NCBI RefSeq assembly: GCF_035083965.1
Contig: NC_089722.1
Coordinates: forward strand, 28,418,642-28,482,641
Source: Branchiostoma lanceolatum
Lineage: Eukaryota; Chordata; Leptocardii; Amphioxiformes; Branchiostomatidae
DNA: 64,000 nucleotides
Direction of reading: 5' to 3'
In this document: positions 13,201 to 59,202 of the stretch, in pieces
How the letters are laid out: each line of letters begins with the position of its first letter
Position numbering within the stretch: position 1 is the stretch's first letter
Made by a program: the position numbers and the translations under genes
The notes under the pieces: generated by a model
What the model was told of the DNA's origin: nothing
Database searches by the model: none
The model's input: the letters and a program-made list of their open reading frames with translations, nothing else

Positions 13201-16200
13201 AGACACCGGTTTAATAGTGAGTTAAGCCCCCGTCACAAATCAAGAAATTAGCTCGGCCGACTTGTCGGCGAGCTCCAAATGGCGATTTTCGGGCGAAGTA
13301 CGACCGACGTCCTGCCGATTCTACGGGCTTCGGGCGAATTTTCGGAGCTCGGCCGACGTTCGCGTGTCACTGGAAGCTGCGCTTAAATTCAGCGAGGCCT
13401 CGGCGACGATTTTTGAACTCGCACAGCTCGTCAACAGTTTGCCCGTAGCTCGCCCGAGCAACGCCCAGCGCTCGGCCAATATTCGGGCGGGCATCCGAGG
13501 ATTTTAGACCCGATTTTTGATCGGTCGGAGGTCGCCCAAACTCTTCGGCCTCGTGCGAGCCTCGCACGGGCCTTGAACAATAATCGGACGACCGTCGTCA
13601 GTGTTCCGGCCGACTCATGAAAAGTAAGGCGTGCTTCGGGCGAGCGTTGTGCAGGTGTTGATGGGAGCTTGGACGGGCCTCGGCCGAACTCCTTCTTGTT
13701 TATAGATAAAAGGAAACGACAGTTTGGTTTAAAACATAAGATGATAAATGATACTGTAATATTAACTAATACGAATTTCAACTTGTCGAAGAATGCTGCC
13801 AAACTTTTCTAATGAAAGACAATTCAATGCAAAGTTAAATTTTCATTCAAAAAAAAAATTATAAATAAAATGTTGACACCGAAGACAATGCTTCTTGTTT
13901 CAATTTGTATATTAATGAACTGGGGCTTGACTTTTGAGGTTTGACTTCACTTCCTGAGTTTTTTCTCCACAAAATGACTAGTTGAAAGTCCACTGAGTCA
14001 TTATAGATCTATGTTTGTCTGCCGAGGCACGCCCAGGCGTCGGCAGGGCGTCGATAGGCTTGTCAACGGTCGGTCGAAGCTCGGACGGCGTTCGCCCGAG
14101 CTTCGGTCGATTTCTATTTGGTGAAAATTTTTGGATCGGGGTTAAACGACTGATCTGTTGACTTTGTGGCTCCTGCACTTGTATTTTGATTGGTCTATAA
14201 CAAAATTCCTCTTTATGTGATTATTTTCAGTGTGCCCACCTACTTCACTTGTGCCCTACAGATTTGCCACAACTCAGAAAGTAAAGTTGGTCCAAATTTG
14301 AGATTGTTACCAGGCCATTTGATCCTGACTTCGTCCGTGTCCAAGAGATGGTACCGTCTTATGTGGGATTTATGATTATTAGCGTTCGACGGACGTCGCC
14401 CGAGCTCTGTTCAATTTGTGACGGGGCAGGTTTTCAGTGAAAAATACGGTCGACGCTCGGGCGAATTTGAAATTCGGCGAGCTTCCGGCGATCTACAAAA
14501 TCGGCAGATGCTCGCATGAATTGTGACGCCGGCTTTAGGACAGCTCGATTGGAGCAGCACCCATCTTTTGGAAGGGCCATAAATGGGGGTCTCGTGTTCA
14601 AGGAGGTGCCTCGAGCATGTTAAAGCCATAAATAAAGGGAAAGGGCTAGCAACCCCTCCCTGTAGAAGCACATATATATCCTGCTTCTATAACAGCAAGG
14701 AAACTTGTTGCCCTATGTTCCACTAGGCACTACAGGTCTGAACGAAGACATTCTACCTGCCTATCATGTCCATGTGTGATTGACTGCTTCGCAGGTGACT
14801 GATGATGTTAACGTCCATGAAACATTAAGATTTTTATCTAACAATTGTCTCTGTCACTGCTTCCTGTAGGGATGAGGCCCAGGCTAAGATGATGGGTCTG
14901 AAGGACCGCAGTGAGAAGGACCTGGCACAGTACAACATGGAGCTGAAGGAGCTCATGCGCATCATCGACCACGACGCCAAACTCAAGCAGTTCATGACCA
15001 TGAAGACCCAGGAGAGGGCTGAGATGCAGGAGGAGGAGGAGCTCAAGGGGAAGAAAAAAGGTGGGCAGAATTTTATTCTTATCTCTTGTTTCACACTGGG
15101 GGTCTCAAAGGCTTGTCCCTTTGTGCTGTGATGGAAATTTGCTTGTGGGGGAGGACAAAAATTTCATCCCGTCCGTCCATGTGGAAGGACAAAAATCTGA
15201 ACTTCATGACATAAAAACACATAATTCTTTGCTAAAATTGCACATCTTTGACCCCCACCCCCAAATTATCGAAACAGTGAGTGGGGCGGACAAGCATTTA
15301 AAGCTGGAGACAGCCCTGGTTTAGACATCAAAAGAACATCTTAAAAGTCTGTAACTTAGGGGCAAGAGATGCGCCATAACTATACAAATGTTGACATTTC
15401 AGAAGAAAGACAGTAAAAGAAAAGAAGGTCTTGCAAGAAATAATACGTCATGATTGACTGTAATGTTGTCAATGGTTTTACATGACTGTTTATTTCTTTT
15501 TGCAGAGGAAGAGAAGCCAGTTGGAGGAGAAGAAACAGTAGAAACATATGAGGCTGCCTTCACGCGAATCAAGGAGGTCACGGGAGAGGAAGACATCGAC
15601 ACTCTTGTCAAGAAGTTCATCGCTACAGAGGACAAGAACTTTGCACTGTTTAATTATGTTAACGAGCTGAATAACGAGGTGGAGCTCCTGCAGGAACAGA
15701 TCCAGGAGATCAAGGATGAGATCGCCAAGTTTAAAGCTCAGGGCATCGAGATGGAGAAACAGAGGAAGGAGATCATGAAAGACCTGGAGGTGGGACGTCT
15801 TCTTGTCTTTCCTCCTGATGTTATGTTCATTTTCCCCATTGAACCTCTATCAAAACATAACATAAAACTAGAAAGGCAATGTGCAAGCAAATACATAATG
15901 TTTATTGACTAAAACACCTTCATATATCTGGTGACCAGCCCCTTCAACCTGTCCTGCCACTTGCTACATTAGGTGTTAGACAATACATGGTGTCTGCTAC
16001 ACATCGGGTTACCACAGTGACAGCCGTCTGGTCCAGGTCTTTGACATTCATTTGGAAGGGAAGAAGAACAAGAAATATTGAAAAAATATGTTACCCTTCT
16101 GTGAAGGTAAACATAATGAGTTTCTAGGAGCTACAACACAGAACAGAAATATTAGGAGGCTTGAAATTTCATCAGTTGGTAAAATGTATAATAAGAAATT

Positions 16201-17796
16201 AACTGTTCTCCTACTCTAAAAATTTCACTCACCAGAATTTTCGACGGAATCATTCGGTCTTCATCAGCTATTTGACCCAAGTGCTGTAGACACGTGTTTC
16301 CCTGCTAACATCTCCGGTCACTTTCACAGGCAAAGGCGACATCATCCACCCAGCAGGCTGACCAACACGAGCAGCAGCAGAAAAGTACCAACAAGATCCT
16401 GGAGCAGCTGAAGGCCGCCGTGGAGTCCGTCTTCACCAAGATCAACTGTGACCGCTCCGTCATCACCGACATGCTGGGGGGCAGCGAGGGAGTCACGGAG
16501 AACAACATGATGCAATACCTGGGTCTGATCGAACAGAAGACTAACGACCTACTACAGATGCAGGCTTTCTTGGAATTGAAGGTGCCCAGAACATTATCTT
16601 TATCAATTTCCTCTATTAAGTTGCAAAAGGATATACAACAACAACAACAACAACAAAATAATGTTTGATATTCATTTGTAAATACAAAATGTCCTGTATG
16701 TAGTTTGGATTGGGTTGGTCTGAGATACAACCTGTCTCAAAGCATGTTTCAAAGCACGTTTACAAGTGAGTCTGCCATGAGATACAATCATCTGCACCCC
16801 TCATTCATTCAATGAACGACAAAGACGCAAAAAGGTCTGGGCTAGGTAGGTTAGGCTTTATGTACAGGCGGCCCAGTGTGTGGGGGGGTAGGGGGTTTGT
16901 GCTTACAAAACTACCTCTGTTAGCTTGGATGTCAGTCAACAGGTGAAGTCTTGGCGCATGGTGCATCTGGGTCACCTAATTAACTTATTTGAGCTCCGCC
17001 CAAATATTCAACATGTGATAGTAACTCTTCTTTTACGTGTGGCCTTCCAGGAGGCTGAACAGAAAGGCGAGGAGACAGGCAGGCCGGCCACCACCACCCT
17101 GGCCATTGGTCCCAGTGTTCCCCCCATCCCTGCCACCATGCTGAACATCGCTGCACCGTCAACTGGGTATGTACACATGTACTTCTGTTGTCTTCACTAA
17201 GAATCACAGGTCATTCTGTCCAGGGATGTAACTGGACAACATACTATTATTATTAGAGAGATAAACATTTGAAATGCAGCCCTTCTGCATTGTACCAAAC
17301 ATACCTGAAAATGTCAGACATTCCTTTTTAGTATGACAACTACTGAAACAGAAATGTGCTCTTGAATCTGATACTTAAACATGGGTGTCAAGTAGCATTA
17401 TTACGTGACTTTAAAATGCACCCCTTCTGTATTGTACCAAACATTCCTGGTGGTAAACCGTATGTTGTTCAAAACACCCCTTGTTAGTATTGACAACTAC
17501 AGAAATGTGCTCTTAGGTCTGATGATTTTAAAAACGCATCAAGTAGCATTGTTACGTGACTTTGTTCCCTCTGGCAATTTTACAGCGATGATTACGAGAG
17601 TGAATCAGAATCGGACGACAACGGTGATTACAACCGACCCATGTCCCAAGACGAACTGAAGGCAAAGGTCATGCGCAGCATCACCAAGAAAGAGCAGGCG
17701 CCAAAGAAGCGTGCAAGCTCGCCAACGGGAGACAAACACGACAAACCGCGCCCGGGAAGCAAGCAGGAAAAAATCAAGAAGCCAACGAAGAGATAA
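10272..17796 (+). CDS. ODAD1: Outer dynein arm docking complex coiled-coil protein (ODAD1/CCDC63-like)
   Basis: ODAD1 (CCDC114), CCDC63 and Chlamydomonas DC2 anchor outer dynein arms to ciliary doublet microtubules. Exons: 10272-10429, 11928-12117, 12472-12594, 12848-13029, 14870-15060, 15506-15789, 16330-16581, 17051-17166, 17586-17796. All phases join to 568 residues, close to the length I recall for CCDC63 and shorter than ODAD1. The protein is almost wholly predicted coiled coil, with MERKIKMQHKTMGGVHASHQ and the NFALFNYVNELNNEVE block as recognisable family segments. It ends with a low-complexity acidic DDYESESESDDNGDY stretch and a basic Lys/Pro tail. The start is the first in-frame ATG after an acceptor. 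I cannot decide between the ODAD1 and CCDC63 paralogues; a pre-duplication gene is likely. Confidence 0.85.
10740..10816. repeat. Short foldback with GTTACTCAAGCAACTGGAT ends
   Basis: GTTACTCAAGCAACTGGAT (from about 10742) is mirrored by CAGTTGCTTGAGTAACTG (to about 10810). The same ends bound the element at 40980-41170, and single ends occur near 21510 and 48740. It lies in intron 1 of the ODAD1-like coding region. Confidence 0.65.
13230..14535. mobile_element. ~1.3-kb GC-rich element with GTCACAA ends in ODAD1 intron 4
   Basis: The element begins CCCCCGTCACAAATC and ends AATTGTGACGCCGGC, forming short terminal inverted repeats; a further GTGACGGGGC end lies near 14418. Both GC-rich flanks (13245-13690 and 14010-14520) are filled with variants of TCGGGCGA / GCTCGGCCGA, separated by an AT-rich centre. 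No coding capacity is seen, so it is probably a nested or composite MITE. Confidence 0.5.
17265..17565. repeat. Diverged ~140-bp tandem duplication in ODAD1 intron 8
   Basis: Two copies share CCCTTCTG.ATTGTACCAAACAT, then TATTGACAACTAC-like sequence, GAAATGTGCTCTT and CAAGTAGCATT.TTACGTGAC in the same order. Confidence 0.7.
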
Positions 17797-25500: not shown

Positions 25501-28500
25501 TCAAACTGAGGACGAAGCATGGCGCTTTTTCGTCAGCTATTAGTGGAATGCAGCCAGAGGCTGTTTCCACAACCTCTGAGCCGCAGAACACAGTGAATCA
25601 TCATCATTAGTGGAATGTGGCTTTGCTAAGGCTCACATATTTTTGGCCAAGCACACTGGGTCACCCCAACCGGGTTGGGTTCTTTTACCTGTGTGTGTAT
25701 GGTCACACATAATGAGTGTACAAAGCCTACAGCCAGGAGTTTGCTACCCCCAGACCCCGGGGAAGACCACCGAAGAAATGGAAAGACTGAATTGTGAAGC
25801 ACACTGGCTTAAACAGTCGGGAAGCAAAGGCAAAGGACAGGACTGCTTGGAGGATCCTCCGGGAAAGCAAGGGGCCAGTTCCTGGCCTGAGCACGTAGGC
25901 AGGTATGGTCACAAAAAACATGTTAGGCCATGTCATTTCAAATTCTTATTCAAGATATAAATCTGGGAAATCAAAGTGAAAGCAGAATCTATGGGAAATC
26001 TGTAACTTAGTTTACACAAGATAGAATGAGCACTACCGGCTTGGTGAAACCTGACTAATTAATCACATTTAAAGTTGACCAATCAGAATCAGGCATTTGC
26101 CTTGGTGCTGACTGACCTTCCAATAAACTCTGCTGCTCCTCAGGCTGTTCCAACACCTGCTGCCACTCCCCCTTCAGGTGTTGGTGCTGCATGTACCTCA
26201 AGACCTTTTCTCCGTAGTATTTCAGAGTCAAGTCCATGTGTTTCCTGTCATTGGTATGTATGGATGTACATGTAACTCACTAACAGGTAACAATATCATA
26301 ATTACACAATAGAATCACATCCTTCATTCATAATGAGTGTCAAGTGAGGGGGAAAGTCTGCAAATCATGCAGTATGAAAATCACATTGTGCCAACAATTA
26401 TCAGAATAATGCAAATTTGAGAATACACAGACCCTGAATAGAATCTAATAAAGCCATACCGTTGTTTTTCATGCAGTAGAACAATCAGTTCATTGAGCAT
26501 TGAGAATGACATCTGTTATTCACAATGAGTGTCAAGTGAGGGGGAAAATCTAAAAATTATGCAGCATGAAAACCACATTGTGCCAACAATCATCAAAATA
26601 ATGAATTTGAGTATATACAGATATAGAGTCTAATATTAGTAATAAAGCCATACCGTTGTTTGCTAACAATTATCAGAATGAGTTTGAGCATACACAGATT
26701 CTAGACAGGATCTAATAATGCGTACCGTTGTTTATCGTGTAGAAGAACCATCAGTTCGTTGAGCACGCTCCGCATCATGCACTCATTCCGTCCCGCCAGC
26801 TCCACGAACGGTGCGAACGCTTCGGACGGCACCTCGTCTTTGTGGTAGAACTGCGGCGAGAACGTGACCAGCAGTTCTCGCACCAGCCTCCCGCACTTGA
26901 ACCGGTTCTGGAACTCCAGCAGCCAGTTGTACTGCTTCTTTGGGCTGTACCGCATTTTCAGGGAGGGCCATCTTGGAAACAAAATTAAAGCAATAATCTT
27001 ATGAGTGTTTTGCTGTATGGCTTTATTTCAGATGTGAATGTTCAACTGTATAATGTTAGATGGCACCTGAAATCAGTAATACTGCCTGGGTGACCTATGC
27101 ATTGCTATGTTGCAATTTTTTCAAAATAAAACGCATTAATACTTGGGTAAAGTACCTGAGCATTTCCATTTCCTTTCAACTATTGAGTATTGTTATACAT
27201 ACTAGTACCCAAAAAGACACAAACACACATAGACTGTTTCAAAAAGCTACATGCCAAAGGATTCATGTAGAAATTGTTCCTTTTTTTTATGTGGCGGTCT
27301 TAGAGTCACGAGCCAGTAAAATTGTGAAATATGATCTTGGGCACTTTGACAGCTTGAAAATACTTTATTTATTTCAATATATTTCCATTGAATAAAATCA
27401 TCTCTTTTCAAAATACAAAATAACATTTGTCAGTTGTAAATGATAAGTCACATGGCCTAACTAAAATATATTGAGCATCTTCTAACTCAAATTACTTGAT
27501 TTGCATTTTGGAAATCTTGTATTCACATCTAAATGTTGCAATGTTATGTGGGCATCGAGTCTCGCTGCTATATACTAGTAGTGTACATGTTGGAAAATAG
27601 CCTAGCTTGAAATGAGGGAACAGTTACTGTAATAAAAAGTCTTTTGTTGCTAGCACTTCACAATGACCTACTAGTATGTCAGTATGTAGCACTCTTCGGA
27701 AAGTGTTCATAGGGATAACTCTGAGTCTGATGTATTTATTACTAGTCTGTAATTGATGTTCTTGCCATTTATATCAGTAACATCAGGCAATCATTCACTT
27801 ACAGTCCATTAACCAAAAGTGGTACATGTATTTTGAATATTTAGCACATGTGAGTTGAATTTCAGTTGATCTAACCTTTAGCAATCACATCACATGTACA
27901 ATATATCACCAAAAACATGTTTGAGAACATGTTTTCTCAATCTAAGACAAACAAAACCTATCAGTCTATAATAGTATAGTGGGATTTTTAAAACCCACAA
28001 AAGTAAGTATATCAAATATATTCATTTTGTTGAAGTACTTAAGTACTGAAATTACAAAATTGTTCATTTTCTTGAAATGTACTGATCAATCCTTCAAGAC
28101 TTCTTCATTTCAATCTTGAGAATTTCTCTGTTGACTCCTTCTGAGTAAACCTTGCAGACTTCACTTTGGAAGACGCCTTCCTTTTGGAGGAATTCTTCAA
28201 ATAACCTGGTCCCCCCTCCCACGCCGAAGTAGTGTGTTTTCGCCGCCAGGTAAACTGTGCCATGTGGGGCGAGTACACTCTTCATCAAGTCATGCAGCTT
28301 CTGATAGGAGTCAGTATTGTAGATTGTCTCGGATGTTAGGATGACATCATACTTATTGTTCGTAGACTCTGATTCCTCCGTCAAAAGTTCTTGAACCCCG
28401 CCCCAGTCCCCTCCAAAAAATCTGCATCTGGCTGCATCAAGACCTGCTCCCGTATTGAGTACAACGTTGGGAATCGTCACATTTTGTAGCACTTCCTCGT

Positions 28501-29654
28501 TGTAGTCTTGGAAATGAATACGTTCCGCTCCTTTGGTGAGCGCGAGGATCCCGGGTAAGCCGGCACCACAGCCTAACTCCAGCACCATCAGGCCAGCCCA
28601 GGAGAGCGCGATCTCGCTGAGGTACTGCACGAGGTCCACAGAACACTCCCAGATTTTCATCCCGCCTTCGTACACACTAGGGATGAGGTCGGACTCTGAC
28701 GTACTTGCTTCTAGGCTCTTGCTTTCAGGAGAGGTTATGTAGGATAATACTTCTCCCCCTTCCAGTCTGAGCTGACTGGTGGTTGCAGGTTGTTGCACTT
28801 CAGAAAAGGACATGGAGATCTCCTTTGCAGGTAAAGGGGGAGGGGGGCACTCTTGGGTACCATGAAGTTCTCCTGTGTTTTGACAGCTACTATCTCCTTC
28901 CTCTCCGTCTTCTTCGGTTATCTGGAAGCCGAATGTGAAGGACATTCTGGTTCTTACGTGATTTCTATCCTGTGAAAAACCTCAGTTCAGCTAGCACCAT
29001 GTGCACGTCCACCCCCGGTACTGAATACTGCGTATACCGGAAGTAAATGCGTGTTGACCTTTGACCTACCTGGTGCTCCGATTTCTTCTCAAGACAGACA
29101 TTAATAATATTCCATCTCATTTATGACCATTTATACTCAGTTATCATATGACATGCAAAAAATGTGAACCTTTTACCCTTAGTCAATTTGCAATATTCTT
29201 AACACCTCGACGTCTCCAAGGAAGGAACGTCGCAACGAAGATCGCATCAAGAAAGACACCAGGAAAGTTTAGATCATCAAATAATTTTCTGCACCAATAT
29301 TCACTACCTCACCTCAACTATATGGATGATGACGTGCCTGGACAGTAGATAAAGCTGCAAATGCCTCTACAAATATGTTATCATTAGGTATTGTGGTTAT
29401 ACGTAACGTTAACTACGTACGTACGTAGACTGTGGGGTCTGATATATGTTATCAGACGTTCAGCGTTATACGTAAGACTATCCCTACCTTTCAAACAACT
29501 TGAGCCTCCAAATTTCCCCGCTTCTTGCGACTGCGTTGAACCTACTGCATGTGTAGCCGAAGTTTAACACGTCATAGTGGTCCAGGACGAGCGAGCGGAG
29601 AACCTGTTCCACTGTTTCATCTGCGAGAGAATTTATCGTCGCACCGGCCGCCAT
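19520..29654 (-). CDS. FBXO21: F-box only protein 21 (SCF substrate adaptor)
   Basis: FBXO21 is an F-box adaptor of SCF ubiquitin ligases. Exons (minus strand): 29488-29654, 26726-26971, 26117-26244, 25316-25468, 24714-24844, 24158-24294, 23043-23184, 22489-22553, 21819-21936, 21232-21351, 20856-20941, 20309-20466, 19520-19692; phases close to 607 residues (human about 628). Domains: F-box (about 9-60, DETVEQVLRSL to WRLKLFERWPSLK); SirB1/transglutaminase-like region (about 235-340, GIPITMAILYAEIAKCLGV, EPVNFPNHFLLRW); C-terminal HspQ/YccV-like domain (about 487-560, YSVGMIMRHR, CVIYGWDPQC, FFNVLVADGSNRYAA). The ATG lies in AAGATGGCGGCC. An identical copy of exon 1 occurs at 32939-33105, next to unique upstream sequence, so either copy could be used. 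METTL18 lies in intron 1. Confidence 0.92.
21110..21230. repeat. GTGGGGT-rich simple sequence
   Basis: Degenerate GGGGT / GTGGGG runs lie immediately beside FBXO21 exon 10 (21232-21351), on its intronic donor side. Confidence 0.7.
21441..21486 (+). other. Hammerhead-ribozyme-like remnant
   Basis: CTGACGA (21446-21452), a partial stem and GAAACGTC (21472-21479) occur in hammerhead order. The preceding AGTCA equals the stem I strand of the copy at 41014-41057, but its partner here has mutated. A CATCCAGTTGCTTGAGTAACTG end follows near 21510, tying it to the same repeat family. An extra A lies between core and stem II. Confidence 0.3.
23542..24016. mobile_element. Non-autonomous hAT-like element with 8-bp target duplication
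   Basis: Ends are TAGGGGTGGGTACCGGTAC and GTACCGGTACCCAGCCCTA, inverted repeats with one mismatch over 19 bases. GTTTATAC flanks both sides (23534-23541 and 24017-24024), an 8-bp target-site duplication typical of hAT transposons. The interior is rich in GGTCCAGGTCC repeats and has no transposase. It sits in an FBXO21 intron. Confidence 0.85.
24400..24590. repeat. TACTATAC-type satellite tract
   Basis: About 190 bases built from TACTATA / TACACTATGC variants in an FBXO21 intron, about 120 bp from exon 5 (24714-24844). Confidence 0.85.
25225..25325. repeat. Tandem copies of the FBXO21 exon 4 donor region
   Basis: AGTACCTTGGTATCTAACCAAT-like units recur, with AGTACCTTGG near 25253, 25277 and at 25311-25320. 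On the minus strand each reads CCAAG/GTACT, the exon 4 donor; only the 25316 junction keeps the exon in phase with exon 5. Confidence 0.7.
26320..26735. repeat. Tandem repeats that include the FBXO21 exon 2 donor
   Basis: A unit containing AATGAGTGTCAAGTGAGGGG, TTGTGCCAACAAT and ending CATACCGTTGTTT is present twice and partly a third time. The last part resembles CGTACCGTTGTTT at 26721-26733, the real exon 2 donor, so the intron carries two extra decoy donors. Confidence 0.7.
28094..28945 (-). CDS. METTL18: Histidine protein methyltransferase 1 homologue
   Basis: METTL18 is an AdoMet-dependent methyltransferase known in human to methylate a histidine of ribosomal protein RPL3. This single uninterrupted frame encodes 283 residues. 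An acidic, poorly conserved N-terminus (about 1-100) is followed by KIWECSVDLVQYL, the cofactor loop VLELGCGAGLPG, HFQDYNEEVLQ (acidic motif), PNVVLN, the catalytic-region DVILTSETIYN and the family signature AAKTHYFGVGGG. The length suits a family member. The gene lies wholly inside intron 1 of FBXO21 on the same strand, so it needs its own promoter or bicistronic processing. It reads as a functional gene with no breaks. Confidence 0.93.
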   Translation of the reverse strand: MSFTFGFQITEEDGEEGDSSCQNTGELHGTQECPPPPLPAKEISMSFSEVQQPATTSQLRLEGGEVLSYITSPESKSLEASTSESDLIPSVYEGGMKIWECSVDLVQYLSEIALSWAGLMVLELGCGAGLPGILALTKGAERIHFQDYNEEVLQNVTIPNVVLNTGAGLDAARCRFFGGDWGGVQELLTEESESTNNKYDVILTSETIYNTDSYQKLHDLMKSVLAPHGTVYLAAKTHYFGVGGGTRLFEEFLQKEGVFQSEVCKVYSEGVNREILKIEMKKS

Positions 29655-29789
29655 CTTGTATGTTTATGTGGACTGTTCCATTTAGTTCGGTTTTGAGGGA
29701 GAGAAAGTTTACGAATTTGAGTAAAAGTTGGGCAGATCAATGGAAGAGCGTGGTTTGCTTGAGTACATGCAAGAGAAATACACACTACA
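29378..29789. repeat. 412-bp direct repeat, copy 1 (FBXO21 exon 1 and flanks)
   Basis: This segment contains FBXO21 exon 1 (29488-29654), its donor and about 135 bp upstream of the ATG. By eye it is identical to 32829-33240. Unique sequence lies to its left and the 696-bp array directly to its right. Confidence 0.9.
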
Positions 29790-32700
29790 CTACCAAGATA
29801 TTTGCTGTAATGTGATTGGTTAAGCCACCTAGGGCATCTTGCACTAATGGCCTATAAAAGCCAGAACACACTGTACTTGTGCTCATTCGAGCCTTGATCC
29901 TTGAGAAAGCCACACACAGGCGAAACATGTCGGTGTGGGCTCGAATAAAGTTCTAAACGGGAACTATACGCGGCTACAGCCTCTTTCTGAAGATGTGGTG
30001 TGAGTGTGTACGGTTGGTTTGAGGTCGCCCACTACTACTGCCTATTGAATTTCCACATTGGAGTCGACTTCGCCGGTGAATCGCTCTGGAGCTCCGGACC
30101 CAGAGGAGATCCTGTACACCAGCCCAAGAACCTTCATCAAGAGAAGAAGCTGGAAGAACATCCGCCGCCAGAAGAGCACAAGCAGACTGCCCCACCATCA
30201 CAGTCCAAGACTGCTACAGCGAGAGAAGAGAGTCTGAAGACGCCGCCACTGTTGCCCAAAGCCTGCAGCGCAGATACGCCAGAGCTTCCTACGACGCCAG
30301 CGCCAGAGACAGCCGTTGCAAAGGCAGAGACAGGCTAGAAGCTACACGGACTCTATTCTTTGTTTACATGTATTGACCTTTGTGACAATTGTAATTGTTC
30401 TAGAACAATAGATGAAGTCATACTGATAGAGGTCAAGTGAGGTCATGTAGTCAGTGCATTTAGAACTGTAGAAAAACAGAGTGCACTACCAAGATATTTG
30501 CTGTAATGTGATTGGTTAAGCCACCTAGGGCATCTTGCACTAATGGCCTATAAAAGCCAGAACACACTGTACTTGTGCTCATTCGAGCCTTGATCCTTGA
30601 GAAAGCCACACACAGGCGAAACATGTCGGTGTGGGCTCGAATAAAGTTCTAAACGGGAACTATACGCGGCTACAGCCTCTTTCTGAAGATGTGGTGTGAG
30701 TGTGTACGGTTGGTTTGAGGTTGCCCACTACTACTGCCTATTGAATTTCCACATTGGAGTCGACTTCGCCGGTGAATCGCTCTGGAGCTCCGGACCCAGA
30801 GGAGATCCTGTACACCAGCCCAAGAACCTTCATCAAGAGAAGAAGCTGGAAGAACATCCGCCGCCAGAAGAGCACAAGCAGACTGCCCCACCATCACAGT
30901 CCAAGACTGCTACAGCGAGAGAAGAGAGTCTGAAGACGCCGCCACTGTTGCCCAAAGCCTGCAGCGCAGATACGCCAGAGCTTCCTACGACGCCAGCGCC
31001 AGAGACAGCCGTTGCAAAGGCAGAGACAGGCTAGAAGCTACACGGACTCTATTCTTTGTTTACATGTATTGACCTTTGTGACAATTGTAATTGTTCTAGA
31101 ACAATAGATGAAGTCATACTGATAGAGGTCAAGTGAGGTCATGTAGTCAGTGCATTTAGAACTGTAGAAAAACAGAGTGCACTACCAAGATATTTGCTGT
31201 AATGTGATTGGTTAAGCCACCTAGGGCATCTTGCACTAATGGCCTATAAAAGCCAGAACACACTGTACTTGTGCTCATTCGAGCCTTGATCCTTGAGAAA
31301 GCCACACACAGGCGAAACATGTCGGTGTGGGCTCGAATAAAGTTCTAAACGGGAACTATACGCGGCTACAGCCTCTTTCTGAAGATGTGGTGTGAGTGTG
31401 TACGGTTGGTTTGAGGTTGCCCACTACTACTGCCTATTGAATTTCCACATTGGAGTCGACTTCGCCGGTGAATCGCTCTGGAGCTCCGGACCCAGAGGAG
31501 ATCCTGTACACCAGCCCAAGAACCTTCATCAAGAGAAGAAGCTGGAAGAACATCCGCCGCCAGAAGAGCACAAGCAGACTGCCCCACCATCACAGTCCAA
31601 GACTGCTACAGCGAGAGAAGAGAGTCTGAAGACGCCGCCACTGTTGCCCAAAGCCTGCAGCGCAGATACGCCAGAGCTTCCTACGACGCCAGCGCCAGAG
31701 ACAGCCGTTGCAAAGGCAGAGACAGGCTAGAAGCTACACGGACTCTATTCTTTGTTTACATGTATTGACCTTTGTGACAATTGTAATTGTTCTAGAACAA
31801 TAGATGAAGTCATACTGATAGAGGTCAAGTGAGGTCATGTAGTCAGTGCATTTAGAACTGTAGAAAAACAGAGTGCACTACCAAGATATTTGCTGTAATG
31901 TGATTGGTTAAGCCACCTAGGGCATCTTGCACTAATGGCCTATAAAAGCCAGAACACACTGTACTTGTGCTCATTCGAGCCTTGATCCTTGAGAAAGCCA
32001 CACACAGGCGAAACATGTCGGTGTGGGCTCGAATAAAGTTCTAAACGGGAACTATACGCGGCTACAGCCTCTTTCTGAAGATGTGGTGTGAGTGTGTACG
32101 GTTGGTTTGAGGTTGCCCACTACTACTGCCTATTGAATTTCCACATTGGAGTCGACTTCGCCGGTGAATCGCTCTGGAGCTCCGGACCCAGAGGAGATCC
32201 TGTACACCAGCCCAAGAACCTTCATCAAGAGAAGAAGCTGGAAGAACATCCGCCGCCAGAAGAGCACAAGCAGACTGCCCCACCATCACAGTCCAAGACT
32301 GCTACAGCGAGAGAAGAGAGTCTGAAGACGCCGCCACTGTTGCCCAAAGCCTGCAGCGCAGATACGCCAGAGCTTCCTACGACGCCAGCGCCAGAGACAG
32401 CCGTTGCAAAGGCAGAGACAGGCTAGAAGCTACACGGACTCTATTCTTTGTTTACATGTATTGACCTTTGTGACAATTGTAATTGTTCTAGAACAATAGA
32501 TGAAGTCATACTGATAGAGGTCAAGTGAGGTCATGTAGTCAGTGCATTTAGAACTGTAGAAAAACAGAGTGCACTACCAAGATATTTGCTGTAATGTGAT
32601 TGGTTAAGCCACCTAGGGCATCTTGCACTAATGGCCTATAAAAGCCAGAACACACTGTACTTGTGCTCATTCGAGCCTTGATCCTTGAGAAAGCCACACA

Positions 32701-32828
32701 CAGGCGAAACATGTCGGTGTGGGCTCGAATAAAGTTCTAAACGGGAACTATACGCGGCTACAGCCTCTTTCTGAAGATGTGGTGTGAGTGTGTACGGTTG
32801 GTTTGAGGTTGCCCACTACTACTGCCTA
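29788..32828 (+). mobile_element. Array of 696-bp repeats: four full copies and one partial
   Basis: Units start at 29788, 30484, 31180, 31876 and 32572; the fifth stops after about 257 bp. I saw one difference between copies: GAGGTCGCCC in unit 1 against GAGGTTGCCC in the others. Each unit has, in order, an inverted CCAAT box (GATTGG), TATAAAA (29863-29869 in unit 1), a hammerhead-like hairpin (29885-29946) and AATAAA (29944-29949). A Pro/Lys/Glu-rich frame without ATG follows (ending LPTTPAPETAVAKAETG). The final partial copy stops about where an LTR-like promoter segment would end, so the array could be LTR-internal-LTR units (a miniature retrotransposon) or retrozyme-like repeats. No reverse transcriptase is present. 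Confidence 0.8.
29885..29946 (+). other. Hammerhead-like hairpin in each 696-bp unit
   Basis: A 9-bp perfect outer stem (ATTCGAGCC with GGCTCGAAT) encloses TTGAGAA, a 3-bp stem GCC/GGC with an ACACACA loop, GAAAC and GTC, the order of a type I hammerhead. The core departs from CTGANGA at two positions, C3 to T and G8 to A, which would still pair with each other. Copies recur 696 bases apart near 30581, 31277, 31973 and 32669. Confidence 0.35.
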
Positions 32829-33240
32829 TTATCATTAGGTATTGTGGTTATACGTAACGTTAACTACGTACGTACGTAGACTGTGGGGTCTGATATATGT
32901 TATCAGACGTTCAGCGTTATACGTAAGACTATCCCTACCTTTCAAACAACTTGAGCCTCCAAATTTCCCCGCTTCTTGCGACTGCGTTGAACCTACTGCA
33001 TGTGTAGCCGAAGTTTAACACGTCATAGTGGTCCAGGACGAGCGAGCGGAGAACCTGTTCCACTGTTTCATCTGCGAGAGAATTTATCGTCGCACCGGCC
33101 GCCATCTTGTATGTTTATGTGGACTGTTCCATTTAGTTCGGTTTTGAGGGAGAGAAAGTTTACGAATTTGAGTAAAAGTTGGGCAGATCAATGGAAGAGC
33201 GTGGTTTGCTTGAGTACATGCAAGAGAAATACACACTACA
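32829..33240. repeat. 412-bp direct repeat, copy 2 (second FBXO21 exon 1)
   Basis: Identical by eye to 29378-29789, offset 3451. It joins the truncated fifth 696-bp unit on the left and unique sequence (AGTCACAATAAACTC) on the right. Confidence 0.9.
32939..33105 (-). other. FBXO21: Duplicate FBXO21 coding exon 1
   Basis: This copy of exon 1 encodes the same 55 residues from ATG (33103-33105) to the same donor. Because unique sequence lies upstream of it, it may be the exon attached to the ancestral distal promoter, leaving the copy at 29488-29654 bypassed or used with an array-derived promoter. It could also be an assembly duplication. Confidence 0.8.
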
Positions 33241-36370: not shown

Positions 36371-36378
36371 GATAAAAA
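36371..36378 (+). promoter_or_regulatory. Possible TATA box of the cystatin-like gene
   Basis: GATAAAAA lies 58 bases upstream of the ATG at 36436, which would leave a very short 5' UTR. It is weak evidence for a core promoter. Confidence 0.3.
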
Positions 36379-36435
36379 GGGCAATCGGAGGGGATCATCG
36401 CTTCAGTCTGCTCTGCTGCATCGTGTGGAAACGAA

Positions 36436-38821
36436 ATGGAGGCAACGCTGAGTATCATTCTTCTTCTCGCAGCTTGTCTTAGCGTCAGAGCAGCGCCACG
36501 CTTCCTCGGGAGCTCCGCCAACGAGACGCATGAGTGGTCCAGCAACGAAGCCCGAGACTTCAACCCATGGGCTGCAGATCTGATCGAGGCAGCCGATGCT
36601 TCAGACCCGCAGACCTACCAGCTCCGGCATACTCTAACCATGGGCGGCACACGGTACGCCATCCTCACAAAGCTGAAGGAAGACGGCAGTTTGGAACATC
36701 AAGCCGCCAAAGCATCGAAGAGCAGTCTCGAGAGCAAGCCCCTAGACCGTCAACCTGACGACTACTCATCGACGGTAAGCCCCTTGGCGGAAGCGAGCAA
36801 ACAACTTCTCATAAAGGAACTCGGGGATGGCATCCAGTACATGGACGAGGAGGCCAGTCTGAACGAGACCCGGCGGGGCCCCGTGTACGACTGCGCTTTC
36901 AAGGTCTGGAACGACTCCTCCACGGCGGACAACGACAAGGTGGTCTACAGGGTGCTGCCGTGCAGACCTTCAGGTGAGTGTGTTGGGTTTATAGCCTGGA
37001 ATCCAGGCTATTGGGTTTAACCTTATAGGCAAGGCTCCACATGCACGTACACGGGACTGAAGGCGCCTTGGTTCTAACATGGACCTCAACATGCAGAAAG
37101 ACTTGATCATGACATACTGCCATCTTCATGTGTGTAACAATTTGTATGTTTCTACTACTACTCGGCAAGTATGCAGGCAGGGCTACTACTAGTATTGATG
37201 GTGCCTTGTGCACTGCCAGTAGTCACTTACCACAGATGTCGACAGAGCAAGGACATTCAATATAGTAGGTCAGAGTGATGTATGTGAGTAAAGTTTAGTA
37301 CCTATAGTTGCATTGGTCTGGTGTAGGTTCTGTTCTTTTGAGATGGCGGTAGTGAAAGTGTGTGTGTGCATTCCAGATTGAAAACCTTTACGGCTACAAC
37401 TACAACGCTATCAGAGCCCTACACATACAGTTTGTTGAATCAACACGCATAAGAAACAGAGTACAGCACACTATGGGAAATGTTCCGTAGCAGACCTTAG
37501 CGTGGTTCAATTTCCCTGATACCGTTTTCTGTCCATGTGCGAACACAGGAAATGTTAAATCTGAAAAGACATATGGTCAGGCTACCCAAGTGACTTCTGT
37601 CGATCGGACTTGTTCTAATCATTAGCCTCCTTTGCATGCTTTCTGGCCGGCGGCGGCGGCGTTTTTTTTTTTTTTGGGAGCGCTGATTTGTGATGTTCAA
37701 CATATCGGGGCCAGATTCTTTTGCTGGAGAAATCAAAATTACCGGCAAAAGAATCTGGCCCCGATATGTTGAAAACTCGTGAAACAGAGCTCCCCCGGAA
37801 TATGAACGCCGGCGCCGACCGAAAGAAGGCTACTCGTTAATTCTACTCATGTTGCAGCGGACACTAGCCTGAATTCAATCAAGCTCCTGTAACCGCTTGC
37901 CGCCCTGTAACCGCATAGCCGGGGAGGGGACAGAAATCCCCGGACAGCAGGAGTTTGCGTTATACAGACTAGCCTATTGCAATATTGTTTTTTTTTATAA
38001 AAAAAAAGATCTAAAAAAAAACTTGCGTCTTTCATTCCATTACAGGAAGGCACAACCTGGCTTCTGATGACAACGAAGAGTACATGACCTGCAAGTTCAC
38101 TATGGACCAAACCCTACGTCAAGCAGTACTGCAGAAAGCGGAACTCTACCTCCCCTGGTTAAACAACAACAAACCTCCTCCCAACGCCAGAAGCACTACA
38201 CAGATGAATCTCACCGGCCACGACGACGACTGGACGGCGCAGAACGGAAACCCCACGGAGAGATCCAGCGACGACGCCTCCGAATTCTCGAGCAATCCTA
38301 CGGACGAAGCCAGTAGCACTGAAACCTTTAAAGATGACAACAGCCAGTTTGTACACAAGGACGCCGACGAAGATCAACGGGCCCCGCCAAAGGCACAACC
38401 ACCTGTCAACAACTGTGTGAAAGAAAGATCGACAGCCAACGACGATGTCCACCGAAAAGCCTCATCTGTAGATGACTCCCCAACGAACAAAGTCGTCCGC
38501 GTCGAGATGTTCCGGCCGCATCGAAAGGTACCCATCCAGTTTGACGCTCAAGCAACGGATGGCCACTGTGGCCGCGCCGTGGACGCGCTGAAGATGGTTC
38601 AACGGTGGCAGAGGCGTCCATTCGACCCATCCAGCATAAAAATCCGCCTGCCAATGGAATGCGGTAAGACGGAGAACTGTATCAACGAACATTGTCTTTC
38701 TCCTGTTTACCTTCTGATCGCTTATACAGAAAAAGTTGGCCATTTGGAACCAGTAACCATGACGCCTGAAGTAATGAAGGGCTTTCTTGACATCATTTTA
38801 AGGCAAAGTGTGTCGGGCTGA
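36436..38821 (+). CDS. Secreted protein: cystatin-like domain plus TGF-beta-propeptide-like region
   Basis: Two exons (36436-36973 and 38046-38821) give 437 residues. Residues 1-20 are a signal peptide (SIILLLAACLSVRAA). PRFLG (21-25), the helix AADLIEAADASD, TLTMGGTRYAILTKL (QxVxG-like loop, glutamine lost) and the pair C153/C176 (YDCAFKVW, VLPC) follow the cystatin/fetuin pattern. Exon 2 begins with CKFTMDQTLRQAVLQKAELYL, very like the F-x-L...AEL-x-L-Y strand of TGF-beta propeptides, then an acidic Ser/Asp-rich insert (about 225-325). VVRVEMFRP, FDAQ, the helix ALKMVQRWQRRP and YLLIAYTEK resemble the remaining propeptide arm. No furin site or cystine-knot ligand follows; it ends at ILRQSVSG. 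N-glycosylation sites are N29, N143, N159 and N234. I recognise no named gene; both domain calls are pattern-based. Confidence 0.75.
37695..37772. repeat. 29-bp perfect-arm hairpin in the cystatin-like gene intron
   Basis: TTCAACATATCGGGGCCAGA then TTCTTTTGC (37695-37723) is mirrored exactly by GCAAAAGAA then TCTGGCCCCGATATGTTGAA (37744-37772), with a 20-base spacer. Confidence 0.85.
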
Positions 38822-46419: not shown

Positions 46420-49400
46420 ATGGCGGAACCAAGAAGCCCTCTTGGTATTTACATGGCACAACAACAGTGGGTTCTTCTCTTCTCAATAACTTATAGATAA
46501 TCTTGGTCAGCAAAGTTGGTCTTAGGTTTCTTCTTAAAGATATCTGACAGATATTGGAGTACTGTATGTCCGGAGTGCGTGGAAATGATAATATTTATTT
46601 TTATTCGACAGTGTCTTCTTGTCGTCTGCTAGTTTGATGCTTTCTTTTTCCTTGGTTTTAGTAAGAAAAAGACAACTATTTAAAAAAAAACAGTGGCGGC
46701 ATAACTCAGGACATACGATTAAAAGATAGCCAAATATCCACAAAACGCTGAGTGTTTTACAACATTATTCTACAGTATTTCTGGAGTATTGATAGTAGTA
46801 CACATATATATTTTGAAGGTTGTCTATATCATCATCATCTTATCACTATCATGTCGAATCAGCTCTATTACAGTCCCATAAAAATGATGAATTTTCTAGG
46901 TATGCTGTCACCAATACTACAATGACTCCTCCAAGCTCAGATGTCAATCATTCAGAAGGAAGGCCTGCACTGAAAAGGCAGAAATCAGCGGTCAGTATGG
47001 AATTCTGCTCTTTCGTACAATTCAAGTTCATCCTGAAATTTTCGTAGTATTTCTAAGGTCCTCATCTTTTATGGTCATTTCACCACCACAAACTCAGACT
47101 GGCAAACAGGATATGGTATTCCAATATGTTACTACTGTTGTTTGAACCGGTGCAAAGATACAGAAATTGAGAAAAGATAAATTTTTATTATCATGAATTT
47201 GTATCTGGAATGGACCAAGAAGAACCTAAAAGACAAGTTTACTCACATATTGTTGATTGAGAATGCTGTGTATTTTATAGTTGATAACCATTGTTTTAAG
47301 CGAGACAGGCCACACAAACATGGAACAGCCAATGCTGCTCTAGGTACTAGGATCAGTATGTGTTCTCTTGTCTGATAAAGTAAAACTGTTAGGACCATTA
47401 TAACAAGTGGACATGCCCCTAACACTAGTAACGTTACTCGTTTGTATATTTTGTTCTTCTACTTCCAGACATCGCCAGCTGTAGCCCCACCAGGATATGT
47501 TGTGATCCAGCCTTATGATGCCACATACAAGAACTTTCCCTCTAAAAGGAAGGAAACATCTTATCACTACAGGGGGAGGTATGATCTTCCCTATAACCAC
47601 TTGTTCTTGAGGGTGTCCTTAGCTAAAATATTTTTGTACACTTCTGATGAGTTGATAATTATACCAGAGATTTGTCAATGTGATGGAGAGAGTCTGACAC
47701 AATATGGTTTCTTGCTCCAACTATCGCAATTATGAATATTATTAGTATAAGTGTTTTAGATATGCTGGTGCAATTCTCCTCATTGATTTTATGTGTTGTT
47801 TCTTCATCTTGTACCAACAGAACCATCTCATCTCCTGAAGGGTCCATGGAGCTACTGAGAAAGTGCATGCAGAAACACATCAACAACACCCTGGTAGAGG
47901 CTATAAAACCTTACAAAGAGGTAAAGTATTGATTGTAGGAAAAGAGTAGCACTATACATCAGTATCAGTATCAATGGATATATTATGTACATGTCTTGCA
48001 GATGATGATTTACAGTATTGCAGATGATGATCTAGCTTCCTTCGCAGACTTCCTAGAACGGCGGCTTATATATTGGGGGGGGGGGGGGGGGGGGCATACA
48101 AGGGAGTTATGTAGCCGAGGGAGTTGTGTAGCCGAGGGGTGACCGACGGCGGTCACCCCTCGGCTACACAACTCCCTCGGCTACATAACTCCCTTGTGTG
48201 CCCCCCCCCCCCCAATATATAAGCCGCCGTTCTAGGAAGTCTGCGAAGGAGGCTAATGATGATCATGATTTACAGTAGTTCTTAATGAAATGAGACTGTC
48301 CAGAAATATGTATCTTAAATGATAATGTTTTGCTTTAAACTTTTGTTATGCAGTACATGTGTATCCATTTCTTCAACGATCCACTATCTTGGTCTTGGAT
48401 ATCTATTTTATGTTTTGTTTGTCAAAGGGGGTTTAAAAATTATTTTAAACCTCCTTGTTTTGTCATCTACATGTATACTGTGTTATTCCTATGTTCGGGT
48501 AGAGTAGGCAGTGTCTGTACATACTATGTCGATATGAAAATGATTTATCATTGTATCCTAACCTCTTTTTGAAGCTTTTTGAAAAAGGAGCCCAGAATTG
48601 CAAAGACAATTGTGGGGAGGAGGTAGACCCTGATCGTTTGGTTCGCACTGCTATCAGACACTCACTGGAACAGGTATGTTTTGAAATATGCATTGTGCAA
48701 TCAAGGATTTCATAGAGTATCATTGATACCAAAATCGTATCCAGTTGCTGAGTAATTGCTTTTTGGCATATCTTATTACCTGCATGTCTAACCTTCATTG
48801 ACAATGAGTGAATGACATATCATTGACGCCACCTATCACTTTGTTTGAGAACTGCACCTAACATCCCTTTTGGTGTCTGGGACGTAGGATCACTACATGC
48901 ATATGTTCATGTATGTTTTGTGTCAGCATGGACAAGGATAAGTGTATATTAAGGATATTATCAATAGATTTAAACTATTACTGTTTGGTAGGTTTATTTA
49001 CTGACTCTTTTTTTCCTGTTTGTTTGTTTGTTTTATTTCTGAAGTGTGGCAAGGAGATGTATGGCCCTCTTGACGTATCCCTTGGAAGCAGCAGTGCCAG
49101 CATGTTTAGGGTAAAGTCCACTTAATTATTCCAAGTACAGGTACCAGTTTTTAAAAGTGGCTACCAGTAGGTACCTTGTATACTTCTTGAATCATGCAGC
49201 CCCTATATCATGCAAAGAAAACAATATAGATATATTGTGTATCATCTTGTATGCCTCTGTTTTGTATGGTGAAACCACAAGAGTATAGAGTTGGATGGAG
49301 TAATCTTTTTTAAATTTTCTCTTTTATGATATAATAAGTAACACTTTTGTATGGTTATTTACAGAAAGCTAAACGCTCCCTGTCCAGCAGTGATGGTGGT

Positions 49401-55771: not shown

Positions 55772-56449
55772 CTACCACCACTTGAAAGTGAACTCATAGA
55801 ACTGCTTTGGGCAGGACTGCCACGACAACTCTCCGAGCTGGATCCCACACTCTCCCTTCCTCGCATACTCCACGTTGTACCTCCTGTCCTTCAGATCCAC
55901 GGTAATGCTGTCCAAGAGGTCGTTGATCCCGGGCGTGGCGTTCCACGGGCCAAAGCTCGCGCACCACTGATACCTACACGTGTGTAGGTTGTCTGCGTCC
56001 AAGTTTGAGTCTGCCTTGTAAACACAAACCACGGCTTTTGACTCCCGTGCGGCGACTGCCGACTCGCGAGCTGTTTGTATAAGCTTTTCGACATTCTCCT
56101 GATATTCCGGCAAACGGGCAATGAACTCCTGTCTTCCCGTGTGTTCACCAAACAATGGCGGAACGTCTCGCAACAAGGTGCACAGGGCGTCAATGCCAAA
56201 ATAGCGAGCTTCTTTGAATATCTCTGGTGAGAGTTCTGCAGGAGGGAGGTCTTCGTTACGAAGGAAGTCTAGGATGTACCCAAAATGTGTGCCATTGCGG
56301 TCTACAAAATACCTTCCCTCCTTGTCCCTTGTGAGATTGTGTCTTCCGCTGAACATGGCTGCCAGCATGGAGTCTTCGTACTTGCGGAGCGTTCTCAAGC
56401 TCGTCGTGTGGTGGGCTCCGCCAACATTCAGCTCAATCACAGGAGGGAA
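55772..56449 (-). CDS. KCTD7/14-type BTB protein, main exon (first exon not found)
   Basis: KCTD proteins use a T1-type BTB domain to oligomerise, and some act as Cullin-3 adaptors. The exon begins after an acceptor at 56450 with FPPVIELNVGG and encodes 225 residues to the stop. BTB: TLRKYEDSMLAAMFSGRH, EGRYFVDRNGTHFGYILDFL and DLPPAELSPEIFKEARYFGI, closest in memory to KCTD7 with KCTD14 features. The C-terminal half has CASFGPWNATPGINDLLDSI and ends YEFTFKWW, the family ending. The phase is 0, as in the two neighbours, so a short upstream exon must supply the ATG; it could even be the exon at 59182-59202. An internal ATG (56438-56440) would also give a nearly complete protein. Confidence 0.85.
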   Translation of the reverse strand, partial: FPPVIELNVGGAHHTTSLRTLRKYEDSMLAAMFSGRHNLTRDKEGRYFVDRNGTHFGYILDFLRNEDLPPAELSPEIFKEARYFGIDALCTLLRDVPPLFGEHTGRQEFIARLPEYQENVEKLIQTARESAVAARESKAVVCVYKADSNLDADNLHTCRYQWCASFGPWNATPGINDLLDSITVDLKDRRYNVEYARKGECGIQLGELSWQSCPKQFYEFTFKWW

Positions 56450-57601
56450 CTTAGGGAGGGGAGGACAAAGTAAAAAAAAACAAAAAGGAAAAAGATGATT
56501 AACAAAATTTCCAGAAATTCAAAAGCTTCCTAAAGATTTAACTTCTATGAAACCATAAGATAAAAAGAAAGATGCTCCTTTGTATTTAAAGTAAGTTGGA
56601 AATATCACTCAAAATTTGAAGAAAGAAATCTTGTTTCATGAAAATTCATGTCCAGCCATTTTATTGCCAGTAAATCCCAATGTAACATTCCTGCAAAGGT
56701 TGCAGAATGGTTTAATTTGATGCAAAAGTGTAAATCTATATCATTTATATATCCATCCATAACATTTGTAGACGCAGGTAATCAACACAAACAGTTCAAG
56801 CTGAATTTGTTACATGATGACTCGAAAGATGAAAATGGTATCTTGTTTTAAATCTTTTTAGTCGTACATCTCTTCATAATGCACCATATACATTTGTTGT
56901 CTCTGAGAGCACTTTCTTACAAGCTGCATCAACGATTTACTTTTTCTATTTATCTTATTTTATTCATAATTGTTATTTTCCACAAAAATGATGGTAAATC
57001 CAGTAACTCTTCAAACACTAAAGTTCCCAAAAGTTTTGAATTCGTTGAGTCATCTGACATGTACAATTGTATATGAAAACACCAATGGCAAATCTAAATA
57101 ATAAGTGCACAGTATGAAATAGTCTTTGAACCTAGACTGATGATACCTTCAATACATCTACATTTGAATATGTCATTACCATTGTTTACCGTTGTAGGTA
57201 GTACTGGTATATTCTGCATGCATATTTTTCTTGTTTCTGATATGTATATTTGTGTACAGGACACATTTCAATATCATCTATACCATCACTCAATAGAAAC
57301 TGCAGGCAGTATAAACTTCCTGGCACTTAAAAGTTATAACTAATTGCTGATATCAATCTTTCCTTATTCCGAAAGTGACCAATGAAAGTGACCAGTCACC
57401 TCTTGTTCTTACTTTTAGGTATTGCACAAGGTATCGTTGTTACAATATCATGTTCCACAATAGCATACTCTGATGGCTTTGAAGTAAAATCCATTCCATT
57501 TTTAAACATCATAAATCAGTTTACATGTTTTATAAAAGAAGTGCTTGATCTTTAAATAAGATCATTTGTTACTTGATAAAATTGTCCGCTACTGTTCTGT
57601 T
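56450..57601. other. Spacer between KCTD-type exons
   Basis: AT-rich sequence with no recognised exon. It may be intergenic, or an intron if the exon at 55772-56449 is spliced to a distant first exon. Confidence 0.5.
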
Positions 57602-59202
57602 TTACCACAGCTTGAATTGCACATCGTACAAGCTTTTCCCGGGGATGCACCACCCACAGATACACTCCTGTAATGTGTAGTCGATCTCGTATCCCTTCTC
57701 CTCTACGTCGCGAGCAATGCACTGGACGAGTTCCTCCGCTGACCACTCCTGTTCCGAGACGTCAAAGTAGAAATCTGCCTTCTTCTCGATCTTGCAGCGC
57801 GTGAACGGGATCCGATCCTGCTTTTGCGTGCATATGCAGATCCGGATCATGCCGTAGCGAAATCTGGCCAACACCTCGTCGGCTCGCCCCACAGCCAGCG
57901 TTATCATGGAGTCAACATTGTCCCGGTAGTTCGGAATGTAGTCAATAAACTTCTGACGGAACTGTTCACCAATGATAGGCTGCATTCCCTCCAAGCAGCT
58001 CTTCAACTTTTCGATGCCGTAGAACTGGGCTTCCTTGTAAACCTGCTTGACAAGAGCGGCGGGCGGTAGATCGCCGTGGCGAATGAAATCCAGGACGTAC
58101 ACGAAAGGCTTCCCATTCCTGTCGATGAAGTAGCGACCGTCTTTGTCCTTGACAAGGTGGTGCCGACCGCTAAACATGGCGGCGAGCATGGAGTCCTCGT
58201 ACTTACGCAGTGTTGCGAGAGACGTGGTGTAGTGATGGCCACCGATATTCAGTTCCACCACGGCAGGGAACTAAGAGGTGTAGATGAAGATTTCAGTCTT
58301 GTGTACTGTACGTAGTTAGGCTGGGTGTGTGTGGAAAATCAAGGAGTGTAGCTGCGCTCTGATATCACACAGCATGAAATGTGATTATAAAATACATTTT
58401 AGTTTGTATGCACAAAACAAAAACCATGGTTATTTCTGAAATAAAATAAATGTGTCTGATAAATCTGTAGTTGAACGGGTGCTCACAAAAAAGACAGTTG
58501 CCACTTTCTTTCTCTGTTTTGATTACAGCAGCACTTTCTACTTGACCAAAAATCATAGAAATGAGATTATGCAAGCTCCACAGAATATGCACACAAAAGT
58601 TTACCTGTCTCCAATGTGAACACCGGTATCATAGACTTAAGATTCATCCATTCAGCCATTAACTTACAAGAGGATAACCTGTTTTACAATGTGGGTACAA
58701 AAGAGGGCCAGAATAATTTGATAAGCCGCTCCAATTTGTTTCCATACTGGATGTCTGCTACAAATCATTTTAGAAATACATGTAGGTACCTGTGGATTGG
58801 AAGTCAGTTTAATATGGTGGATAATTCATTAGTTTTAAGGTTGAAACACTGACTAGACGTTTATTAGATACATCAGCTTACGGCTCTTGACCTCAAACTA
58901 GCCCCCAGAATATAGATAAACTAGGCTTCTTTTTTTGGGACACTGTGACAGTGCATGAGAGTGCCCCCCTCCCACCAATCGTTCCTAAAAAAACTTAGGA
59001 CCACTTTGGGAAAATTATCGAGAAATTTGCAGTTCCTAGCGTTATTTATACAACAAACAGCATCAAGCTGCAACGAAAAGGCACGTAATAAATCCATCCT
59101 GCCATCAGTTGTTGATTGGAAGGAAGGAAGCGGCTGGGAAGAACGGGTAGAAAGAAAGAAAGCACGGCAGGAAATACCAACCTCTCCATCCGCCGCCATC
59201 AT
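57602..59202 (-). CDS. KCTD7/14-type BTB protein 2
   Basis: The main exon (57602-58270) begins FPAVVELNIGGHHYTTSL and encodes a BTB domain (TLRKYEDSMLAAMFSGRH, DGRYFIDRNGKPFVYVLDF) and the family C-terminal half, ending YDVQFKLW. A candidate first exon, 59182-59202, encodes MMAADGE with a donor GTTGGT in phase 0; its ATG sits in CATGATGGCGGCGG. The total is 229 residues including this exon. The C-terminal half is more diverged than the other two copies: the FGPW motif is replaced by VSEQEW, and several cysteines occur near the end (ECICGWC). Intron 1 (58271-59181) holds no other recognised feature. The first exon is inferred. Confidence 0.8.

Follow-up and report, generated by a model that had tools for sequence, protein, structure and literature searches.

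A two-exon lancelet gene for a secreted protein with possible likeness to cystatins and TGF-beta propeptides

Is there in the lancelet a separate gene for a TGF-beta-type propeptide that lacks a growth factor and carries a cystatin-like domain at its front? This question is raised by a locus on contig NC_089722.1 of Branchiostoma lanceolatum, within a stretch of 64,000 nucleotides (28,418,642 to 28,482,641; hereafter the window, from whose first letter all positions are counted). A preliminary description had placed at 36436..38821 a gene for a secreted protein of 437 residues, and had assigned a cystatin layout to exon 1 and a propeptide arm without a ligand to exon 2. The locus does carry a gene of two exons that encodes a secreted animal protein, and this gene is unannotated. 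Tentatively, we interpret its product as a soluble protein, propeptide-like but free of any ligand, that has a cystatin-like domain at its front and would bind or antagonise factors of the TGF-beta family. This fusion is possible and unproven: it is about as likely as an orphan protein unrelated to either family.

Gene structure and protein features

All elements of the gene lie on the plus strand. Coding exon 1 (36436..36973, 538 nt) comprises codons 1-179 and the first base of codon 180, and its end at the donor reads TTCAG/GTGAGT. Coding exon 2 (38046..38821, 776 nt), the last exon found, is preceded by CATTCCATTACAG and contains the remainder of codon 180 through the stop. The intron between them (36974..38045) is of the GT-AG type and in phase 1, with consensus donor and acceptor (CAG/GTGAGT ... 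TTACAG/G), and splits codon 180. Splicing gives 437 codons and a stop; the coordinates of the preliminary description were exact, and splice sites and frame agree. The open frame of exon 2 starts approximately 30 nt upstream of the acceptor. The GC content at codon positions 1/2/3 is coding-like in exon 1 (0.59/0.46/0.70) and exon 2 (0.56/0.41/0.60), and that of the intron is 0.45.

By motif match only, a TATA-like ATAAAA (36372..36377) is located 64 nt 5' of the start codon, and an initiator-like TCAGTCT (36403..36409) is located 31 nt after it, at 33 nt 5' of the start codon. Neither AATAAA nor ATTAAA occurs within 779 nt 3' of the stop, where variants alone were found (for example, AATAAG at 38847). 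This would fit a pseudogene, or a wrong model joining unrelated exons; the consensus splice sites, the kept frame, the coding-like GC content, the core-promoter-like motifs and the leader described below argue against it, and we consider it very improbable. No paralogue was seen within the window (best foreign tblastn match, E 0.46). Searches for relatives of both exons among viral contigs, and of exon 2 among prokaryotic contigs, gave none, a result uninformative for animals.

Residues 1-19 (36436..36492) form a putative signal peptide, with SVRA/AP at its end, as judged from sequence and hydropathy: the mean Kyte-Doolittle value is 2.57 across residues 4-17. No other membrane-like stretch follows the leader, the top 19-residue mean being 0.84. 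The mature protein would have approximately 418 residues. The protein contains four N-glycosylation motifs and, past the leader, eight cysteines (153, 176, 195, 303, 354, 385, 391 and 396). All motifs listed in the preliminary description were found, namely PRFLG, LTMGG, CAFKVW..VLPC, CKFTMDQTLRQAVLQKAELYL, VVRVEMF, FDAQ, MVQRWQRR and YLLIAYTEK.

No furin site of the form R-x-[KR]-R occurs in the protein. It has two minimal R-x-x-R motifs, which start at residues 336 and 366 and are within the arm-like part, not past its last strand. The TGF-beta signature PS00250 had no match in any of the six frames of the whole window, so that no ligand exon is indicated by motif. A further exon with a TGF-beta ligand was considered and rejected, having no motif support in the window. 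The splicing, the hydropathy and the motif scan thus bear out one gene for a secreted protein without canonical furin site or ligand signature.

Comparison of exon 2 with the propeptide arm

Since Pfam PF00688 misses inhibin alpha (E<=0.01), home-made propeptide profiles were built from vertebrate sequences. Residues 195-215 (CKFTMDQTLRQAVLQKAELYL, 38090..38152) resemble the first-strand region of the arm: for residues 186-220, 41 of 30,000 shuffles scored as high, where this and the following shuffle figures for exon 2 are nominal, for one family, and would lack significance in an all-family search. Residues 329-409 (VVRVEMF...MVQRWQRRP....IKIR...YLLIAYTEK, 38492..38734) resemble the rest of the arm (61/30,000 for residues 323-437). 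With the profile of 16 arms, head and tail of exon 2 are each alone above shuffles and stand in the correct order. Between them lies a hydrophilic linker of 108 residues, rich in D/S/N/P/T and probably disordered (residues 220-327, 38165..38488), which divides the arm-like elements.

When this linker was cut out, exon 2 reached 9.8 bits with a profile of nine whole propeptides (0/30,000 shuffles as high) and 7.0 bits with the 16-arm profile (12/30,000 as high), the cut having been picked with the sequence already in view; 48 other cuts gave 3.6-12.0 and 5.5-10.6 bits. Uncut exon 2 reached 3.2 bits (41/5,000) and 5.2 bits (25/10,000), respectively.

The nearest known family is that of the TGF-beta propeptides (PF00688), in particular myostatin (GDF8), with which exon 2 shares, in colinear order, C-x-F...KAELYL, VRVEMF, W-x3-P-x5-I-x-I and the last hydrophobic stretch. 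The spacing from C to K is 15 in both. In the available parts of PMC8157000 and PMC1855920, the first exon of human myostatin contributes 373 bases of coding sequence, and in that of the latter residue 153 is a lysine in exon 2. Therefore, intron 1 of myostatin interrupts codon 125 (phase 1), which lies 28 residues upstream of K153. The lancelet intron, likewise of phase 1, interrupts codon 180, which lies 30 residues upstream of K210, the counterpart of K153 in the alignment. This match supports the arm reading of exon 2 separately from the profile scores, but it comes from a post hoc comparison with a single family member checked in print.

These features would also be expected of a ligand-less TGF-beta-family paralogue throughout. 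In that case, exon 1 would be an N-terminal prodomain that has diverged, exon 2 would be the arm, and the resemblance to cystatins would be accidental; the product would act as a free latency peptide. The two coding exons, the phase-1 intron near the place of myostatin intron 1 and the arm-like exon 2 suit such a paralogue. Exon 1 does not: a profile of the straitjacket (alpha-1 helix, latency lasso, alpha-2 helix), made from 12 sequences, gave it -0.9 bits (2,359/10,000 shuffles as high), and residues 105-179 were at 7,146/10,000, from a profile that barely detects the left-out inhibin alpha (0.4 bits). Instead, exon 1 was modelled as a four-stranded sheet. A paralogue of this kind seems unlikely. 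The missing straitjacket also counts against the fusion.

Several further observations weigh against a propeptide arm in exon 2. Neither the whole protein nor either exon alone had a Pfam family at E<=10, with search filters that discard most matches above E ~0.1. Four further pieces gave one sub-threshold Dumpy match and three times nothing, with neither PF00688 nor PF00031 (cystatin); exon 2 with the linker removed was unmatched. The hhalign comparison of exon 2 with propeptides gave E 0.29 uncut and 0.015 cut. The 7.0-bit score corresponds to E 0.00025 for a single sequence; therefore, many unrelated chains in a large library would reach it. Among 213 open reading frames of the window, exon 2 came second with the nine-member propeptide profile (3.7 vs 4.5 bits). 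Against GDF8 alone, uncut exon 2 was at chance (662/5,000), and linker-cut exon 2 was at 103/20,000; with SPP24, from the cystatin side, linker-cut exon 2 did better (24/20,000).

The structure model of exon 2, of mean predicted local distance difference test score (pLDDT) 41.7, is too poor to be informative. A strand at KVVRVEM, a strand at PIQFDAQ, a helix to QRW and a strand at IKIR fit an arm. However, helices take the place of the supposed first strand (residues 201-220) and of most of the last one (389-405), and the structural search with this model matched nothing relevant. At the level of sequence, exon 2 thus has a weakly supported likeness to the propeptide arm: the two ordered stretches above shuffles and the myostatin-like intron agree with the preliminary description, whereas Pfam and the structural comparison give it no support.

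These results might also be explained by an orphan, lineage-specific secreted protein of neither family, in which both likenesses arise from short patterns of strands and helices, hairpins bounded by cysteines and spacings that agree by chance. The lack of a Pfam family, a PDB sequence search without meaningful relatives (a single chain, E 8.3), the uninformative exon 2 model and the cross-family score with SPP24 are what would be seen in such a protein. The two separate ordered stretches of exon 2 above shuffles, and an intron that agrees with that of myostatin in phase and place, speak against it. An orphan deserves serious consideration, though well short of being probable.

Comparison of exon 1 with cystatins

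In the single-sequence model, residues 41-102 (36556..36741) form a helix and four strands in a cystatin-like arrangement, with a pLDDT of 55-62 in most ten-residue blocks. Structural comparison of the exon 1 model gave fetuin-B rows among the matches. This arrangement speaks against an orphan. The GG of LTMGG sits at a hairpin turn in this low-confidence model, as had been proposed. Compared with QxVxG, LTMGG lacks both Q and V and keeps only the final G. The second loop of the model is likewise without PW. The segment CAFKVW...VLPC (residues 153-176, 36892..36963) is a probable hairpin bounded by cysteines, with two short modelled strands outside the cystatin-like core.

The profiles point elsewhere in the exon. 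With a home-made profile of 10 cystatins, whole exon 1 was reached by 421 of 20,000 shuffles, and residues 20-110 were at chance (6,325/20,000). The cystatin profiles scored best on residues 105-179, where 178 and 171 of 20,000 shuffles were as high. This means that profiles and model favour different parts of exon 1 (105-179 and 41-102), which is a point against a cystatin domain. The same must be said of the hhalign comparison with cystatins (E 0.03), and of the cystatin profile run on the 213 open reading frames, where exon 1 was not among the best six listed. Furthermore, residues 20-110 in reverse, a meaningless control, reached 9.3 bits with a 14-member cystatin model; therefore, bits of this size are not proof of homology. 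Both the weak cystatin scores and this control would be natural for an orphan.

It might be that the cystatin part alone is real: the protein would then be a diverged, secreted member of the cystatin superfamily, of fetuin/Spp24-like plan, with an unrelated long tail. The exon 1 model, the structural rows that include fetuin-B and the scores of residues 105-179 argue for this. It is hard to reconcile with the disagreement of model and profiles, with residues 20-110 at chance and with the lack of QxVxG and PW; in addition, likeness of the segment 153-176 to TRH1, a loop proposed for fetuin/Spp24, was at chance. This explanation seems less likely still than the ligand-less paralogue.

The cystatin layout claimed earlier is partly supported. 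A helix and four strands were modelled, and CAFKVW..VLPC is in the best-scoring part; the sequence evidence is weak, and the cysteine pair lies outside the modelled core. Structure prediction gave a cystatin-like exon 1 with low confidence, so the outcome that would have refuted the preliminary description, absence of both folds, did not arise; the models are too poor to confirm a fusion.

Possible function and known systems

Propeptides are normally made together with their own growth factor and act on that factor or its close relatives. Compared with PF00688 members, the lancelet protein has no Pfam match, straitjacket, canonical furin site or ligand signature, and has a 108-residue linker within its arm. 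If the fusion is real, exon 2 would be a strongly diverged propeptide arm with a disordered linker inside, its growth-factor domain lost or never present. Exon 1 would contribute a small cystatin-like fold (residues 41-102) at the place of the straitjacket, which grips the ligand in a propeptide. The arm-like domain, perhaps as a dimer linked by disulfides through Cys385, Cys391 and Cys396, which precede the last supposed strand, might bind mature TGF-beta-family factors outside the cell. The cystatin-like domain might serve as a second binding surface or might anchor the protein.

We infer binding and function by analogy with known systems. According to the available part of PMC6537384, the free GDF11 propeptide, without ligand, inhibits GDF11 and myostatin; factors bound by the lancelet protein might be held or blocked in the same way. 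That propeptide is derived from a ligand precursor and is recognisable as a propeptide, unlike the lancelet protein, and is a precedent for the mechanism. The sheep myostatin splice variant MSV, as given in the available part of PMC3846833, is a natural product that retains the N-terminal region (256 residues) of myostatin but lacks the part that binds the receptor, and it acts as a myostatin antagonist. Unlike the lancelet protein, which would come from a gene of its own with another front half, MSV arises by splicing of the ligand gene. Since the binding measured was that of the unique 65-residue C-terminus of MSV, it is a partial precedent only, which again weighs against our interpretation.

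On the cystatin side, fetuin and Spp24 have cystatin domains that do not inhibit proteases and bind BMP/TGF-beta family members (available part of PMC3753320). This means that cysteine-protease inhibition is not universal in the cystatin fold, as far as that source goes. By analogy, both halves of the lancelet protein could serve one role, since these domains bind the same ligand family. Fetuin-B appeared in the structural rows; by contrast with fetuin and Spp24, there is here no significant sequence match, QxVxG, PW or supported TRH1-like loop.

As to origin, lancelets show high domain recombination, with exon shuffling biased to 1-1 phase exons (available part of PMC4284660); the words cystatin and TGF are absent from the main text of that paper. 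A rather doubtful proposal, which we nevertheless put above the ligand-less paralogue, is that of a dedicated gene for a ligand-free propeptide whose straitjacket was replaced by a cystatin-like domain through exon shuffling at the phase-1 intron, the product being a soluble carrier or antagonist made apart from the ligand. Among titles and abstract openings, no protein with a cystatin and a propeptide was found, and the terms TGFb_propeptide and cystatin co-occur in 0 papers of the literature searched. If true, a separate free-propeptide gene would be an additional class among the extracellular regulators of growth factors and an example of how exon shuffling gives rise to them. Should the likenesses be accidental, the protein is one more unannotated secreted orphan.

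Other features of the window

At 29774-32857, a 696-base unit is repeated head to tail; its first 300 bases have five matching copies, with 92-98% identity to the first. Four units (29991, 30687, 31383 and 32079) contain the same open frame of 115 residues, which has no Pfam family. The 300 bases at 29378 have an exact second copy at 32829. The repeat is either a recent tandem duplication or an effect of assembly. A near-perfect 64-base hairpin at 48082-48213, with arms 98% complementary and 4 bases between them, is perhaps a small mobile element.

Three adjacent genes of KCTD type (BTB_2 and KCTD_C) are at 55775-56518 (-), 57605-58270 (-) and 59811-60509 (+). Likely exons of an adaptor with PX and SH3 domains span 2906-7372 (+): PX is weak at 2906-3529 (E 0.0037, below the cut-off), and an SH3-like stretch at 4583-4996 was recognised by eye, with no Pfam match. 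At 14829-16665 (+) are exons that encode an outer dynein arm docking protein (ODAD1_CC). A methyltransferase with a Methyltransf_16 domain, presumably METTL18-like, is encoded at 28097-28981 (-).
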